From Flavobacteriales bacterium (lineage in GTDB: Bacteria; Bacteroidota; Bacteroidia; Flavobacteriales_G; JALEGO01), in the NCBI GenBank assembly GCA_020628935.1, contig JAHDEG010000011.1, positions 1 through 64,000 of the forward strand: 64,000 nucleotides of DNA. Reading direction: 5' to 3'. The notes beneath the pieces are model-generated. The model did not search any database. It had not been told where the DNA came from and was given only the letters and a program-made list of their open reading frames with translations. Positions 13,926 to 23,662 of the stretch are shown in pieces (position 1 is the stretch's first letter; the number at the start of each line of letters is the position of its first letter). The position numbers and the translations under genes were made by a program.

Positions 13926-15128
13926 TTAGTAATTGTTATACGCATAGGGTAATGGTACTTTTACATTTAATGTTGTACCAATGTCTTTCTGGCTTTCTAT
14001 CTTAACTTTTCCTGAAAAAGCCAAAACTCTAGATGTAAAGTGCTGCAATCCATTACCAGAATTAATCTTTTCACGTAAATTAAATCCTACCCCGTTATCT
14101 TTTAAAGATAATGTCAAATAATGAGAATCAGAAGCAAGATAAACCGAAAGCTTAGATGCTTTGGCATGCTTAATTGTGTTATTTATAAACTCTTGTGTAA
14201 TTCTGTAAAGATTTAGACTCAATAAATGGTCAAGGTTTTTACATTCATATTCATTGAGATTATAGTCGAAGATGATTTTAAAATTATCTTGTTTTGATAA
14301 TACTTTACATAATTGAAAAATTGCTTTAACTATATCCCCTTCTTTTAAACTACTCGGCATGATATTAAAACAGATTTCTCTCAATTGAGACACTGAATTA
14401 TTAAGTAATGATGTGCAATTTTTATACAAATCTTTTGCCTGCTGATTTTCTTTATCTAAAAACCTATCTAGGTTAGAAAAAATAATACTCAGGGCAGATA
14501 ACTGTTGACCTAAAGAATCATGTAAATCTTTAGCAACTCTCAATTGTTCTTGTTTTTGAGATTTCAAGCCCACTTTTAATAATGCCTTATGATGTTCTTT
14601 CCTCTCTGTTATTTCTTCTAACACTAACAAATAACCCTCATGTTCACCATAACTATTTTTAATTCCTGATCCTTTACAATTAAAAAATCTTGGATTGTCA
14701 TTAACATACTTTTGATCTAAAAGCTCGATATTGATATTTTCAAATGATTCGATTTGTTTTTGAGCTTCCTCCCAAAATGGAACTTGAGAAGTATTATTCA
14801 AATAAAATTTTTCTCTAACAGAATCAGTATTTTGACCTAAAAATTCACTTGCGGCAGTATTCATTGCATTAATTTTACCATCTACATCAATCACTACTAC
14901 CAAATTTGTAGAGGCATTAAAAATATTAAGAAAATAATCTCTAGAAACTGTTGTAGAATTCAACTCCTGCCCTAAGACATTAATAGCCTCAATAATTGTA
15001 TCAATTTCATCTCTTTTATCAGATAACTTTCCTTGATATTTATAATTGCCCATTGAATATTCTAAAAGCAATGTATTTACTTCTGTTATTTGAGACTCTG
15101 GTATATTATAATTTAACTTAAAGCTCAT
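13926..15128 (-). CDS. PAS-containing sensor histidine kinase, HisKA_3 (NarX/DegS) type
   Basis: The 400-residue product has an N-terminal helical segment, a PAS domain at about 60-175 (V-V-V-I-D-V-D-G-K-I-N-A-M-N) and a HisKA_3 dimerisation domain with the phospho-acceptor H203 in D-L-H-D-S-L-G-Q-Q-L. A HATPase_c domain with N and G boxes (D-N-G-V-G-F-N-L, G-N-G-L-Q-H-F) follows. No membrane helix is seen, so it senses a cytosolic signal. The start chosen is the ATG at 15128, which overlaps the TGA of the upstream STAS-like gene (ATGA), indicating translational coupling; an ATG 21 bases further upstream is less likely. Confidence 0.92.
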   Translation of the reverse strand: MSFKLNYNIPESQITEVNTLLLEYSMGNYKYQGKLSDKRDEIDTIIEAINVLGQELNSTTVSRDYFLNIFNASTNLVVVIDVDGKINAMNTAASEFLGQNTDSVREKFYLNNTSQVPFWEEAQKQIESFENINIELLDQKYVNDNPRFFNCKGSGIKNSYGEHEGYLLVLEEITERKEHHKALLKVGLKSQKQEQLRVAKDLHDSLGQQLSALSIIFSNLDRFLDKENQQAKDLYKNCTSLLNNSVSQLREICFNIMPSSLKEGDIVKAIFQLCKVLSKQDNFKIIFDYNLNEYECKNLDHLLSLNLYRITQEFINNTIKHAKASKLSVYLASDSHYLTLSLKDNGVGFNLREKINSGNGLQHFTSRVLAFSGKVKIESQKDIGTTLNVKVPLPYAYNNY

Positions 15129-15514
15129 TTTACAAAGGTTTTCAGCCAATCCAATGCCTTTTTTTCGTCCATAAATATTTGAGTTGGAACAGTTTTAATT
15201 TTATAAGCTACTTTTAAAAAAAGATTTCCAAGATAATTTGTAAAAATTGAATCTGTGAGTAAAGCAGCTGCTAGAACTCCTTCTCTTGCTTCGTTCGACT
15301 GCAAGTAATCTCGTGTCTGTGTGTCAGCAGCATAATTTATATTTCGTATATCAGATAAAACCGGGTAATTTTTCCCAGCAGCAAAAGCTTTTCTATCACT
15401 AACTATAACTTTTGCATCCTCTATTTTTAATTTAACATCACTTTTGAATCGGGCAATCAAAATATCATCATCCGTCAGGGTATATAAAATATGCTGAGTG
15501 TTAAGCTTCTTCAT
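15125..15514 (-). CDS. Small STAS/SpoIIAA-like protein preceding a kinase gene
   Basis: The 129-residue product has an alternating beta-alpha pattern with V-L-S-D-I-R-N-I-N-Y-A-A at about 52-63, where STAS/SpoIIAA-like proteins carry a strand and loop, and a final helix K-K-A-L-D-W-L-K. Uncharacterised Bacteroidota proteins of this type commonly sit beside two-component genes. It is the first gene of the operon and overlaps the kinase start by 4 bases, so stoichiometric production with the kinase is likely. A regulatory or sensing partner role is an inference; no catalytic residues are apparent. Confidence 0.65.
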   Translation of the reverse strand: MKKLNTQHILYTLTDDDILIARFKSDVKLKIEDAKVIVSDRKAFAAGKNYPVLSDIRNINYAADTQTRDYLQSNEAREGVLAAALLTDSIFTNYLGNLFLKVAYKIKTVPTQIFMDEKKALDWLKTFVK

Positions 15515-20699: not shown

Positions 20700-20923
20700 T
20701 TTTATATCAATTGGAGAAAGAAAAAGCCCAAATAGAGGCTCATACAAAGGAACTAGACAACCCTAAAATTGCAGTAGAAGTACTCCCACTACAGAAATTT
20801 TATAAAGCTGAGCAGTATCATCAAAATTTCGTTAAACGAAACCCTAGTCAAGGTTACGTTGTTGGTGTGTCTATTCCCCGTTATAAAAAAGCAATACTAA
20901 AATTTCCTGAGTTGCTTAAATAG
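20700..20923 (+). pseudogene. msrA: Duplicated 3' fragment of msrA (about 70 codons)
   Basis: The reading frame from 20711 (a TTG, not a convincing start) to the TAG at 20921-20923 matches the last 70 codons of msrBA (13036-13248) at about nine positions in ten, both in bases and residues; [10 protein letters not shown] and [15 protein letters not shown] are identical. The similarity stops abruptly just upstream, where an in-frame TAG lies. The fragment lacks the catalytic G-C-F-W-C and the whole MsrB domain, so it cannot reduce methionine sulfoxide. It is a remnant of a recent segmental duplication. Like the parent, it ends a few bases before a converging response-regulator gene. Confidence 0.85.
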
Positions 20924-20947: not shown

Positions 20948-21355
20948 TCACCAATTAAAATGTTTTCTCATAGTAGCTCTTAAACCTTCTGCTGTAAGAG
21001 GTTTAGATAAAAACCCCTCTGAAACACCAAGCGAATCTGCCCTGTCTTTATCATCTTGTAGTATAGATGTACTCAGCATTAATATAACAACCGATTTTTT
21101 TAGTGAGTCACTAAAATCATTGTACGCTTCAAGAAACTCGAAACCATTCATTTTAGGCATATTAATATCTAAAAATATTAGCGAAGGAATATAACTGCTA
21201 TCCTCAGTTCCTTTTTTAATATAGTCTAAAGCCTCTAAACCATTTTTCGCAGTTTCAACTCTATCTGTAATTCCAAGAGTTAAAATTAATTCTTTATTAA
21301 TTAGGTTTGTAGCTAAGCTATCATCAACTAATAAAACACTATCAATCTTTTTCAT
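20948..21355 (-). CDS. Single-domain CheY-like response regulator
   Basis: The 135-residue product is a receiver domain only: acidic pair D11-D12, phospho-acceptor D63 in F-L-D-I-N-M-P-K-M-N-G, conserved S/T in L-S-T-S, and K in S-K-P-L-T. There is no output domain, so it would act by protein contact or as a phosphorelay intermediate. It begins 2 bases after the stop codon of the ethylene-receptor-like kinase gene and is almost certainly its partner. Confidence 0.93.
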   Translation of the reverse strand: MKKIDSVLLVDDSLATNLINKELILTLGITDRVETAKNGLEALDYIKKGTEDSSYIPSLIFLDINMPKMNGFEFLEAYNDFSDSLKKSVVILMLSTSILQDDKDRADSLGVSEGFLSKPLTAEGLRATMRKHFNW

Positions 21356-21357
21356 TT

Positions 21358-23460
21358 TTATACTTTAAGTGTAAAATAGAAGGTGGTTCCTTTATTTAAG
21401 CCTGATTTTAACCATACTTTTCCATTATGATCTTTAATTATTTTTTTACAAGTAGCTAAACCAATACCCGTTCCCGAATACTCATCTCTTGTATTTAATC
21501 TCTGAAAAACCTCAAAAATTTTATCGTGATATTTCTCATCTATTCCTATTCCATTATCACTAATACTAAATTGCCAAAAAGACTCTTTCACAGTACAGTC
21601 AATAGTAACCAACGGATTTTCAGATTCGTTATACTTTAAACCATTAGTTATAAAATTTTTGAACAAGAGATAGAGGTGAGATTTTGAAGCAACTATATCA
21701 GGTAAATCAGTAATTTCAATATTAGCATTTTTTTCAGTTAAAACTTGTTCTAAATCAGCTTTAACATTTTGTAATAATTCGTTAGTATTAATTTTTTCTT
21801 TTTTAAGCTCACTATTATTAAATCTAGAATACTCTAAAATATCTGTAATGAGAATCTTTAGTCTTGTTGCTGCATCTTTAGCAAAACTTAAAAACTGTAA
21901 CCCCTTGTCATCAAGAACAGTGTTATACTTTAACTCAAAAATTTCTATTGTACTCTGAATTGTTCCTAGAGGTTCTTGTAAATCGTGAGATATCATATAA
22001 CCAAATTGCTCTAACTGTTTGTTACTCTTTTGAAGATTTGATATTGCTAAATTACGTTCTTCATTTGCTTTTCTGAGTTCTTTTTCTGAGTTGACTTGAT
22101 TGTTGATATTTTCGAACAGTACAACTGCACCAGAAGGTTTATTAGCCAAATCTTTTAACTGAACAGCTCTAACATCTAAATAGGTAATATCATGAAACCC
22201 TGGACGTTTCAAAATTAATCTTGTTCTGACGTCTTGTTCACCGTTTAGGGCTCGAACTATTGGTAAATCAGTTTCTTTTAAAGGGGTAACTGCATCTAAT
22301 TCGAACACTCCGAATTTACTAACCATTTCACCTTTGTTTACTCCTTCAATATTGTCATCTGCGATTATTTCTCTTCCCGACTGATTTGATAATATGATAT
22401 CACCTTTCATATCAGCAACCACAACTCCAAAGGGGGATTGCTGCAAAACTGCATCTAATAATTCTTTCTTGTCTCCCAGTTCCTTTTTCATAGCTTCCCT
22501 TTCTAATGCAGTACTTATCCATCCTCCTAATAAACGAAGTAAATTTATCTCCGACTTATTAAAAGCTACTCTAGTTGTATCACTTGAAAAATTGAGCGTT
22601 CCGTAGGTTTTACTATTTACTAAAAGTGGTATTCCAATATAAGACTCTAACTTAAATGCTCCATAGCAAGGATGTGCATTGTAAACAGAATCTTTCATAC
22701 TATCAATATGAATTAATTTATTCTCCTTTAATACTATATCACAATAGGTATTACCAATATCAAAAGTTTCGCCACCAGTAAGTAAACCAGCTTCATGAAA
22801 TGTATATTTAACAACATACTTATTGTTTTTAACCTCACTTATGATACCAATTTTAAGGTTTAGCATTCTAGTGACCTCCTTCAATAAATGAATTACATCT
22901 TCGTCAAAATTGTTAGAAAAATTTGCGATCAAACCGTATAGCATTTTCAGCTGGCTATTGTTTCTTTCGATTTGAGCTAATAACTTTTTAACCTCTTCTT
23001 TCTCTTGAACTTCTTTGGCAAATTGTTCTGGTGATGGCACTTTTAATGCCTTAGGTAAAATTGGAACTAAAATTATTGCAGTTGCTATTGATATTAAACC
23101 TGTTATTAGCTTTAATATAGACTGCAGTCTGTAGGTAGGAGTCCAGATGGTCCAAATATCAATCATGTGTGTTAATCCACAAGAGATAATAAATGCAGCA
23201 AAAAGATAAAAAATACCCTTCAGCTTTAAATCTGTTCTTTTTCTTATAAATACAATCATCATGATTGGAATAACCATGTAAGCAATTGATGTTAATAAAT
23301 CACCAACTACGGTAGTCCACAATACTTCTGGCCGCCAAAAATAGCAGTGCCCATGAGGCATAAAATCACTACTTTCAAAAAAGTTTTTGAAATAGTCAAC
23401 AATGGGACTGTTAGTTGCTTCAAGTACTTCTTTGTGATTATGGCCTTCATGCTGTTTCAT
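21358..23460 (-). CDS. Ethylene-receptor-like (ETR1-type) hybrid-less sensor histidine kinase
   Basis: The 700-residue product opens with a His-rich stretch, then a three-helix membrane domain (about 45-140) that matches the ethylene-binding domain of plant ETR1 and cyanobacterial homologues: D54, Y61, I64-P65 and the copper-ligand pair C94 and H98 in C-G-L-T-H keep the ETR1 spacing. A GAF domain (about 180-320), a PAS domain (about 333-450), a HisKA domain with H492 in S-H-D-L-Q-E-P-L, and a complete HATPase_c domain (D-N-G-I-G-I, G-T-G-I-G-L-A) follow. The start is the ATG at 23460; a TTG 6 bases upstream is unlikely. It is expected in the inner membrane. Ligand identity (ethylene, or another small molecule) is inference. 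It is operonic with the receiver gene. Confidence 0.88.
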   Translation of the reverse strand: MKQHEGHNHKEVLEATNSPIVDYFKNFFESSDFMPHGHCYFWRPEVLWTTVVGDLLTSIAYMVIPIMMIVFIRKRTDLKLKGIFYLFAAFIISCGLTHMIDIWTIWTPTYRLQSILKLITGLISIATAIILVPILPKALKVPSPEQFAKEVQEKEEVKKLLAQIERNNSQLKMLYGLIANFSNNFDEDVIHLLKEVTRMLNLKIGIISEVKNNKYVVKYTFHEAGLLTGGETFDIGNTYCDIVLKENKLIHIDSMKDSVYNAHPCYGAFKLESYIGIPLLVNSKTYGTLNFSSDTTRVAFNKSEINLLRLLGGWISTALEREAMKKELGDKKELLDAVLQQSPFGVVVADMKGDIILSNQSGREIIADDNIEGVNKGEMVSKFGVFELDAVTPLKETDLPIVRALNGEQDVRTRLILKRPGFHDITYLDVRAVQLKDLANKPSGAVVLFENINNQVNSEKELRKANEERNLAISNLQKSNKQLEQFGYMISHDLQEPLGTIQSTIEIFELKYNTVLDDKGLQFLSFAKDAATRLKILITDILEYSRFNNSELKKEKINTNELLQNVKADLEQVLTEKNANIEITDLPDIVASKSHLYLLFKNFITNGLKYNESENPLVTIDCTVKESFWQFSISDNGIGIDEKYHDKIFEVFQRLNTRDEYSGTGIGLATCKKIIKDHNGKVWLKSGLNKGTTFYFTLKV

Positions 23461-23662
23461 AAACAAACTAAATAATGTATTTGGGCTAACTTTCTATTTA
23501 AAAACTCAAAAATAGACATTTATTAAGCGAATAAACCATAACAGATATGATATTAACCTGGAGCTTTATAAATAAATATTAATTTCTGCTGATTTAAAAT
23601 GAAAGGATATGGCCCCATGTAAAAACAACGAATAAATATTTTTTTATAAGAGCAACGTATCA

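Follow-up and report, generated by a model that had tools for sequence, protein, structure and literature searches.

An ethylene-receptor-like histidine kinase and its neighbouring receiver in a Flavobacteriales genome

Among bacterial receptors, ethylene binding has been shown in one cyanobacterium and one proteobacterium, and putative ethylene receptors occur in other bacterial phyla, according to PMC11819568. As described there, the first 130 residues of AzoEtr1 from Azospirillum brasilense bind ethylene, function is not restored by its D35A and C75A mutants, and the AzoEtr1 gene is followed by an overlapping gene for AzoRR-etr1, a 135-aa receiver without an output domain. In plant ETR1, published modelling pairs D25 with K91, and a review reports that replacing the conserved membrane Asp with Asn lowers the binding affinity of ETR1-type domains about 100-fold. 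Copper is thought to be supplied to plant ethylene receptors by the P-type ATPase RAN1 (PMC6656775). Here we describe a kinase gene and a receiver gene from a 64,000-nucleotide stretch of contig JAHDEG010000011.1 (the window). We interpret the kinase as likely to sense ethylene, or another small alkene like it, by means of copper(I), and predict that it phosphorylates the 135-residue receiver whose gene starts 2 bases downstream; we assign this reading a probability of about 0.6.

The kinase and its membrane domain

The kinase gene, for an ethylene-receptor-like sensor histidine kinase (21358..23460, minus strand), is an open reading frame of 700 aa with Pfam matches to ETR1_N, GAF, HisKA and HATPase_c. 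It starts at the ATG at 23460, with an alternative in-frame TTG at 23466. The ETR1_N membrane domain (aa 46–141, 23038..23325) matches PF25487 with an E-value of 6.7e-34 and a score of 116.5 bits against a cut-off of 27. It is followed on the same strand by a GAF domain (aa 192–319, 22504..22887; PF01590, E 1.8e-9), the HisKA dimerisation and phospho-acceptor domain (aa 483–548, 21817..22014; PF00512, E 3e-8) and the catalytic HATPase_c domain (aa 594–699, 21364..21681; PF02518, E 6.5e-25). The 700-residue kinase of the initial annotation is thereby borne out, its GAF, HisKA and HATPase domains all having significant Pfam E-values. The PAS domain that it placed after the GAF domain is plausible as a PAS-like segment (aa 339–454, 22099..22446, minus strand) but uncertain, the PAS_4 match (E 0.064, 13.9 bits) lying below the cut-off of 23.1. 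Pattern searches located the H-box (S491-H492-D, in SHDLQEP at 491, with H492 as phospho-acceptor), G1 at 635 and G2 at 663; the N-box pattern gave no match, and the sequence there reads F-I-T-N-G-L-K-Y-N. NCBIfam left both kinase and receiver unnamed: they have 73 and 38 matches, and the 25 listed in each case all fall below their cut-offs.

The residues first read as an ETR1-type ethylene site, D54, Y61, I64-P65, C94 and H98, were all found at exactly those positions. With K117, they correspond to D25, Y32, I35, P36, C65, H69 and K91 of ETR1. A seventh ethylene-binding residue of ETR1, I62, would match I91 of the window kinase, a position invariant in alignment A3. AlphaFold2 predicts three membrane helices (aa 44–74, 81–106 and 110–139) and then a long helix, with a mean pLDDT of 87.9; a search for a solved structure of an ETR1_N domain found none. 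Given the profile score and the retained site residues, membership in the family of ETR1 and bacterial ethylene-receptor domains is firm.

Conservation was assessed in 115 unfused relatives, comprising P0002–P0120 minus four without a domain match, from the 120 listed of 528 matches. Among these listed matches, D54, Y61 and I64 are each kept in 112, P65 in 110, C94 in 114, H98 in all 115 and K117 in 112, and D54 and K117 occur together in 111. Upstream of the domain lies the motif MPHGHCYFW (aa 34–42, 23335..23361, minus strand), which is typical of the unfused bacterial form and absent from the fused relatives described below; H36, C39 and W42 are present in 109, 114 and 105 of the same 115 listed proteins, respectively.

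Relatives in Bacteroidota and the pump-fused branch

An ETR1_N search matched 21 of 395 sampled Bacteroidota genomes, the window's own included, and none of 14 control genomes, which argues against a chance match. Within the window's family, four genomes in all, only the window's genome gave a match over the cut-off. One of the sampled loci, L041, identifies the sampled phylum as Bacteroidota: it encodes a protein identical to a Roseivirga protein at 629 of 630 residues. A pattern scan using one genome per species returned 447 matches, of which 443 are relatives from many phyla, and the best 80 of these were retained as a named set. In 79 named rows from these best 80, Y61, P65, C94 and H98 are invariant, D54 is kept in 76, I64 in 75 and K117 in 73; the PHGxCY stretch is fixed in this set by the search pattern itself, [FY]MPHG[MHA]CY.

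The first of two trees, with 111 rows, groups the window protein with Bacteroidota rows (14 rows, support 96/82); in the second, with 98 rows, its placement is weaker (86/88, not starred). ETR1 sits on a long branch in the first tree, so that the tree carries no claim on plant origin. A second Bacteroidota form of the domain occurs in L025, L029, L033 and L035, and in the interrupted L027: here [WF][PM]PRWxCGxW replaces MPHGHCYxW, with D or N at position 54 and the Y, I, P, C and H residues retained. L042 and L045 form a diverged branch with ETR1_N scores of about 52 bits and N-S in place of the CG of the copper motif; lacking this CG, they probably do not hold copper in that way.

In two sampled genomes, at loci L026 and L028, the ETR1_N domain lies inside a 1532-residue open reading frame that joins a copper P-type ATPase, the ethylene-receptor domain and a histidine kinase (L026:8440-13038 in the first). 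An HMA domain comes first, then the P-type ATPase, in which CPC and DKTGT are present; a further hydrophobic stretch leads to ETR1_N, after which come PAS domains and the kinase. A 146-aa receiver adjoins at a gap of 0. The same junction is found in L044, from a third species of this genus, where the contig ends inside the gene, and in two further genomes (L134 and L135); in the class sample, four of nine matches over the cut-off are fused. On the fusion, the copper-ATPase model TIGR01511 reaches 559.7 against a cut-off of 397; cut-offs are likewise exceeded by TIGR01525, the broader model for heavy metals, and by TIGR01512, that of the cadmium family.

A protein search with the junction as query found 283 proteins, of which 120 were listed (P0121–P0240). 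The fusions, most of them with a histidine kinase, form a sizeable family of Bacteroidota-type sequences. Both CPC and DKTG are present in 114 of these 120, the other six starting inside the ATPase. The few source names given among the listed matches are heavy-metal or copper ATPases or PAS proteins, and the organisms named there are Bacteroidales, Bacteroidetes and Prolixibacteraceae. The 114 listed fused proteins contain CPC and DKTGT throughout, GDGxND in 113, MxxSS in 111, TGES in 109, and YN and HP in 106 each; 110 have a CxxC within their first 100 residues.

In this branch the D54/K117 pair is replaced throughout: all 114 listed fused proteins have N at position 54 and D at position 117. 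In them C94, H98, H101, Met47, Met48 and Met50 are invariant, Y61 is present in 114, and I64 and P65 are each kept in 113. None of the 114 has H36, C39 or W42, the PHGxCYxW motif being gone. Considering the reported loss of affinity on Asp-to-Asn replacement in ETR1-type binding, the fused sites may, by analogy, be of low affinity, or they may be there for copper itself. All fused rows fall in one branch (support 100/100), and P0091 groups beside it (97/79). P0091 is unfused and has PHGxC but carries N/D; this single case suggests that N/D arose earlier than the fusion. The window kinase was also considered as a pump-fused member and rejected, as it has no ATPase domain and carries D54/K117 and PHGHC.

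At L026, cydAB (cytochrome bd oxidase, L026:5812-8204) lies directly upstream of the fusion, which is followed by its receiver and a hybrid kinase. This neighbourhood makes a link between copper, oxygen and the signal of the fusion possible. Among the open-licence PMC papers listed in literature searches, several of the lists being capped at 10 or 20 rows, no title or abstract described the fusion or a Bacteroidota ethylene receptor, and the fusion is probably new to the literature.

Possible signal and copper supply, and the neighbouring receiver

The reading of the window kinase as a sensor of ethylene or a similar alkene draws on AzoEtr1, whose ethylene binding is in print and which has a similar layout, and on the seven site residues; keeping D54 and K117 makes the window protein resemble the proven ethylene receptors. 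Ethylene would be the likely ligand and copper(I), bound by C94 and H98, the metal. The D54–K117 pair would connect this site with helix 3 and with the kinase, and ligand binding, by analogy with predictions for AzoEtr1 and SynEtr1, would lower phosphorylation of H492 and so the transfer to D63 of the receiver. Without an output domain, the receiver would be expected to act by protein contact.

The fusions bear on the metal: as the pump RAN1 is the proposed source of ETR1's copper in plants, a pump joined to the same domain supports copper as its metal. It speaks against a simple RAN1 analogy that no P-type ATPase was found in the window's genome (G000, 82% complete) or in two family genomes (G395 and G396, 98% complete), whereas the same search found at least one in 21 of 24 genomes and in all 14 control genomes. 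HMA proteins are present in the window's genome. As no such pump was found, the copper, if the receptor uses it, would probably come from the periplasm. The window protein has a His-rich N-terminal tail, H4-E-G-H-N-H9 (23434..23451, minus strand), for which a part in periplasmic copper loading would be a speculative role.

A broader picture, which we put forward as possible but tentative, treats the ETR1-type domain as a copper module used in two ways in Bacteroidota. The window would represent the stand-alone form: its lineage would have no P-type copper pumps, and the kinase would obtain periplasmic copper through the His tail and PHGxC. In the other branch, the receptor would be joined to its own pump and copper passed within the chain to a re-tuned site (N54/D117, the Met cluster and HxxH). 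What the kinase reads and reports to a partner receiver would then be either the efflux of copper or an alkene site of low affinity that loads itself.

The main competing explanation is that the window kinase senses copper(I) or redox state: its Cys/His site would report periplasmic copper, and ethylene would not be its natural signal. It draws on the same site being kept in every listed pump-fused protein (114 of 114), where copper is the obvious cargo and may also be the signal, a point that counts against ethylene sensing, and on the HxxHxH-like tail, which the window protein alone has among 192 rows (some of them duplicates). We nonetheless consider it unlikely: the window protein has D54/K117, as do 111 of the 115 unfused relatives, and not the N/D pair of the fusions, and ethylene elicits the response of those bacterial receptors for which binding has been proven.

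The preferred reading, an alkene sensor signalling to its neighbour, also depends on the receiver. This protein of 135 aa (20948..21355, minus strand) has PF00072 (E 1.2e-14) as its sole Pfam family at E ≤ 0.001, with the phospho-acceptor D63, S/T95-96 and K118 present and the acidic pair D11 and D12 read from the sequence. Its gene lies downstream of the kinase gene at a gap of 2 nt, precisely the spacing first noted, and this spacing on one strand suggests a single transcript. Kinase and receiver likely form a pair; the layout, similar to that of AzoEtr1 and seen in 9 of 21 Bacteroidota kinases, is not peculiar to this genome. The nine, each with a stand-alone receiver directly after the kinase, include the window and two fused kinases. 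Of the 21 Bacteroidota loci, 20 could be judged, L027 being left out for its interrupted kinase frame. Among the 80 named loci (the best 80 of 443), in 73 of which the kinase is complete and followed by 500 nt or more of sequence, an adjacent receiver occurs in 11, including Pontibacter and Adhaeribacter. That the kinase is an ethylene-type sensor signalling mainly to other receivers of the cell, as the missing neighbour in 11 of the 20 judgeable loci and in most of the 80 named loci might suggest, is quite improbable given the 2-nt spacing and the recurrence of the layout in Pontibacter, Adhaeribacter and Azospirillum.

Two further features of the window were observed. At 20708-20922 (plus strand) lies what looks like the remnant of a gene for a peptide methionine sulfoxide reductase (PF01625, E 7.4e-9): it encodes a C-terminal fragment, and the start and the N-terminal part are missing. 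A second sensor kinase with HisKA_3 and PAS (13926-15514, minus strand) has a start that overlaps the end of a gene for a DUF7793 protein.

Comparison with known systems

With its matching site and comparable layout, a Bacteroidota pair would extend ethylene binding by bacterial receptors to another large phylum, and the cultured relatives in Pontibacter and Adhaeribacter make such a pair testable. The pump-receptor fusions would matter more than the window pair. They resemble a covalent version of the proposed hand-over from RAN1 to ETR1 and would let copper delivery be studied within one protein, while their fixed D/K change would amount to a natural experiment on the coupling between ethylene site and kinase.

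The closest described system is AzoEtr1 with AzoRR-etr1, which shares with the window an ETR1-type domain with the site residues, a histidine kinase and a 135-aa receiver encoded directly downstream. AzoEtr1 has 525 aa and a PAS domain, whereas the window kinase, at 700 aa, combines a GAF domain with a PAS that is uncertain, belongs to another phylum and is known from sequence. SynEtr1 (Slr1212) of Synechocystis likewise has an ETR1-type domain before a histidine kinase (PMC11819568 and PMC6682694), and the window protein has one N-terminal cysteine before the domain, a feature also reported for cyanobacterial proteins; SynEtr1, however, also senses light, and its response regulator activates a small RNA, while the window receiver has no output domain. 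ETR1 of Arabidopsis resembles the window kinase in the seven matched residues and in the GAF domain after the membrane domain. Plant receptors differ in that they signal through a Ser/Thr kinase, for the most part without kinase activity of their own (PMC11819568), and in receiving copper via RAN1 (PMC6656775), whose P-type ATPase class was not found in the window's 82% complete genome. The fusions share with the window kinase the domain itself, Y61, I64, P65, C94 and H98, often a kinase and, in L026 and L028, an adjoining receiver; they differ in carrying a pump in the chain, N/D for D/K, no PHGxCYxW, and invariant Met47, Met48, Met50 and H101, which the window protein lacks. The window pair is thus a known layout and typical of its family, and the fused branch is what stands out.
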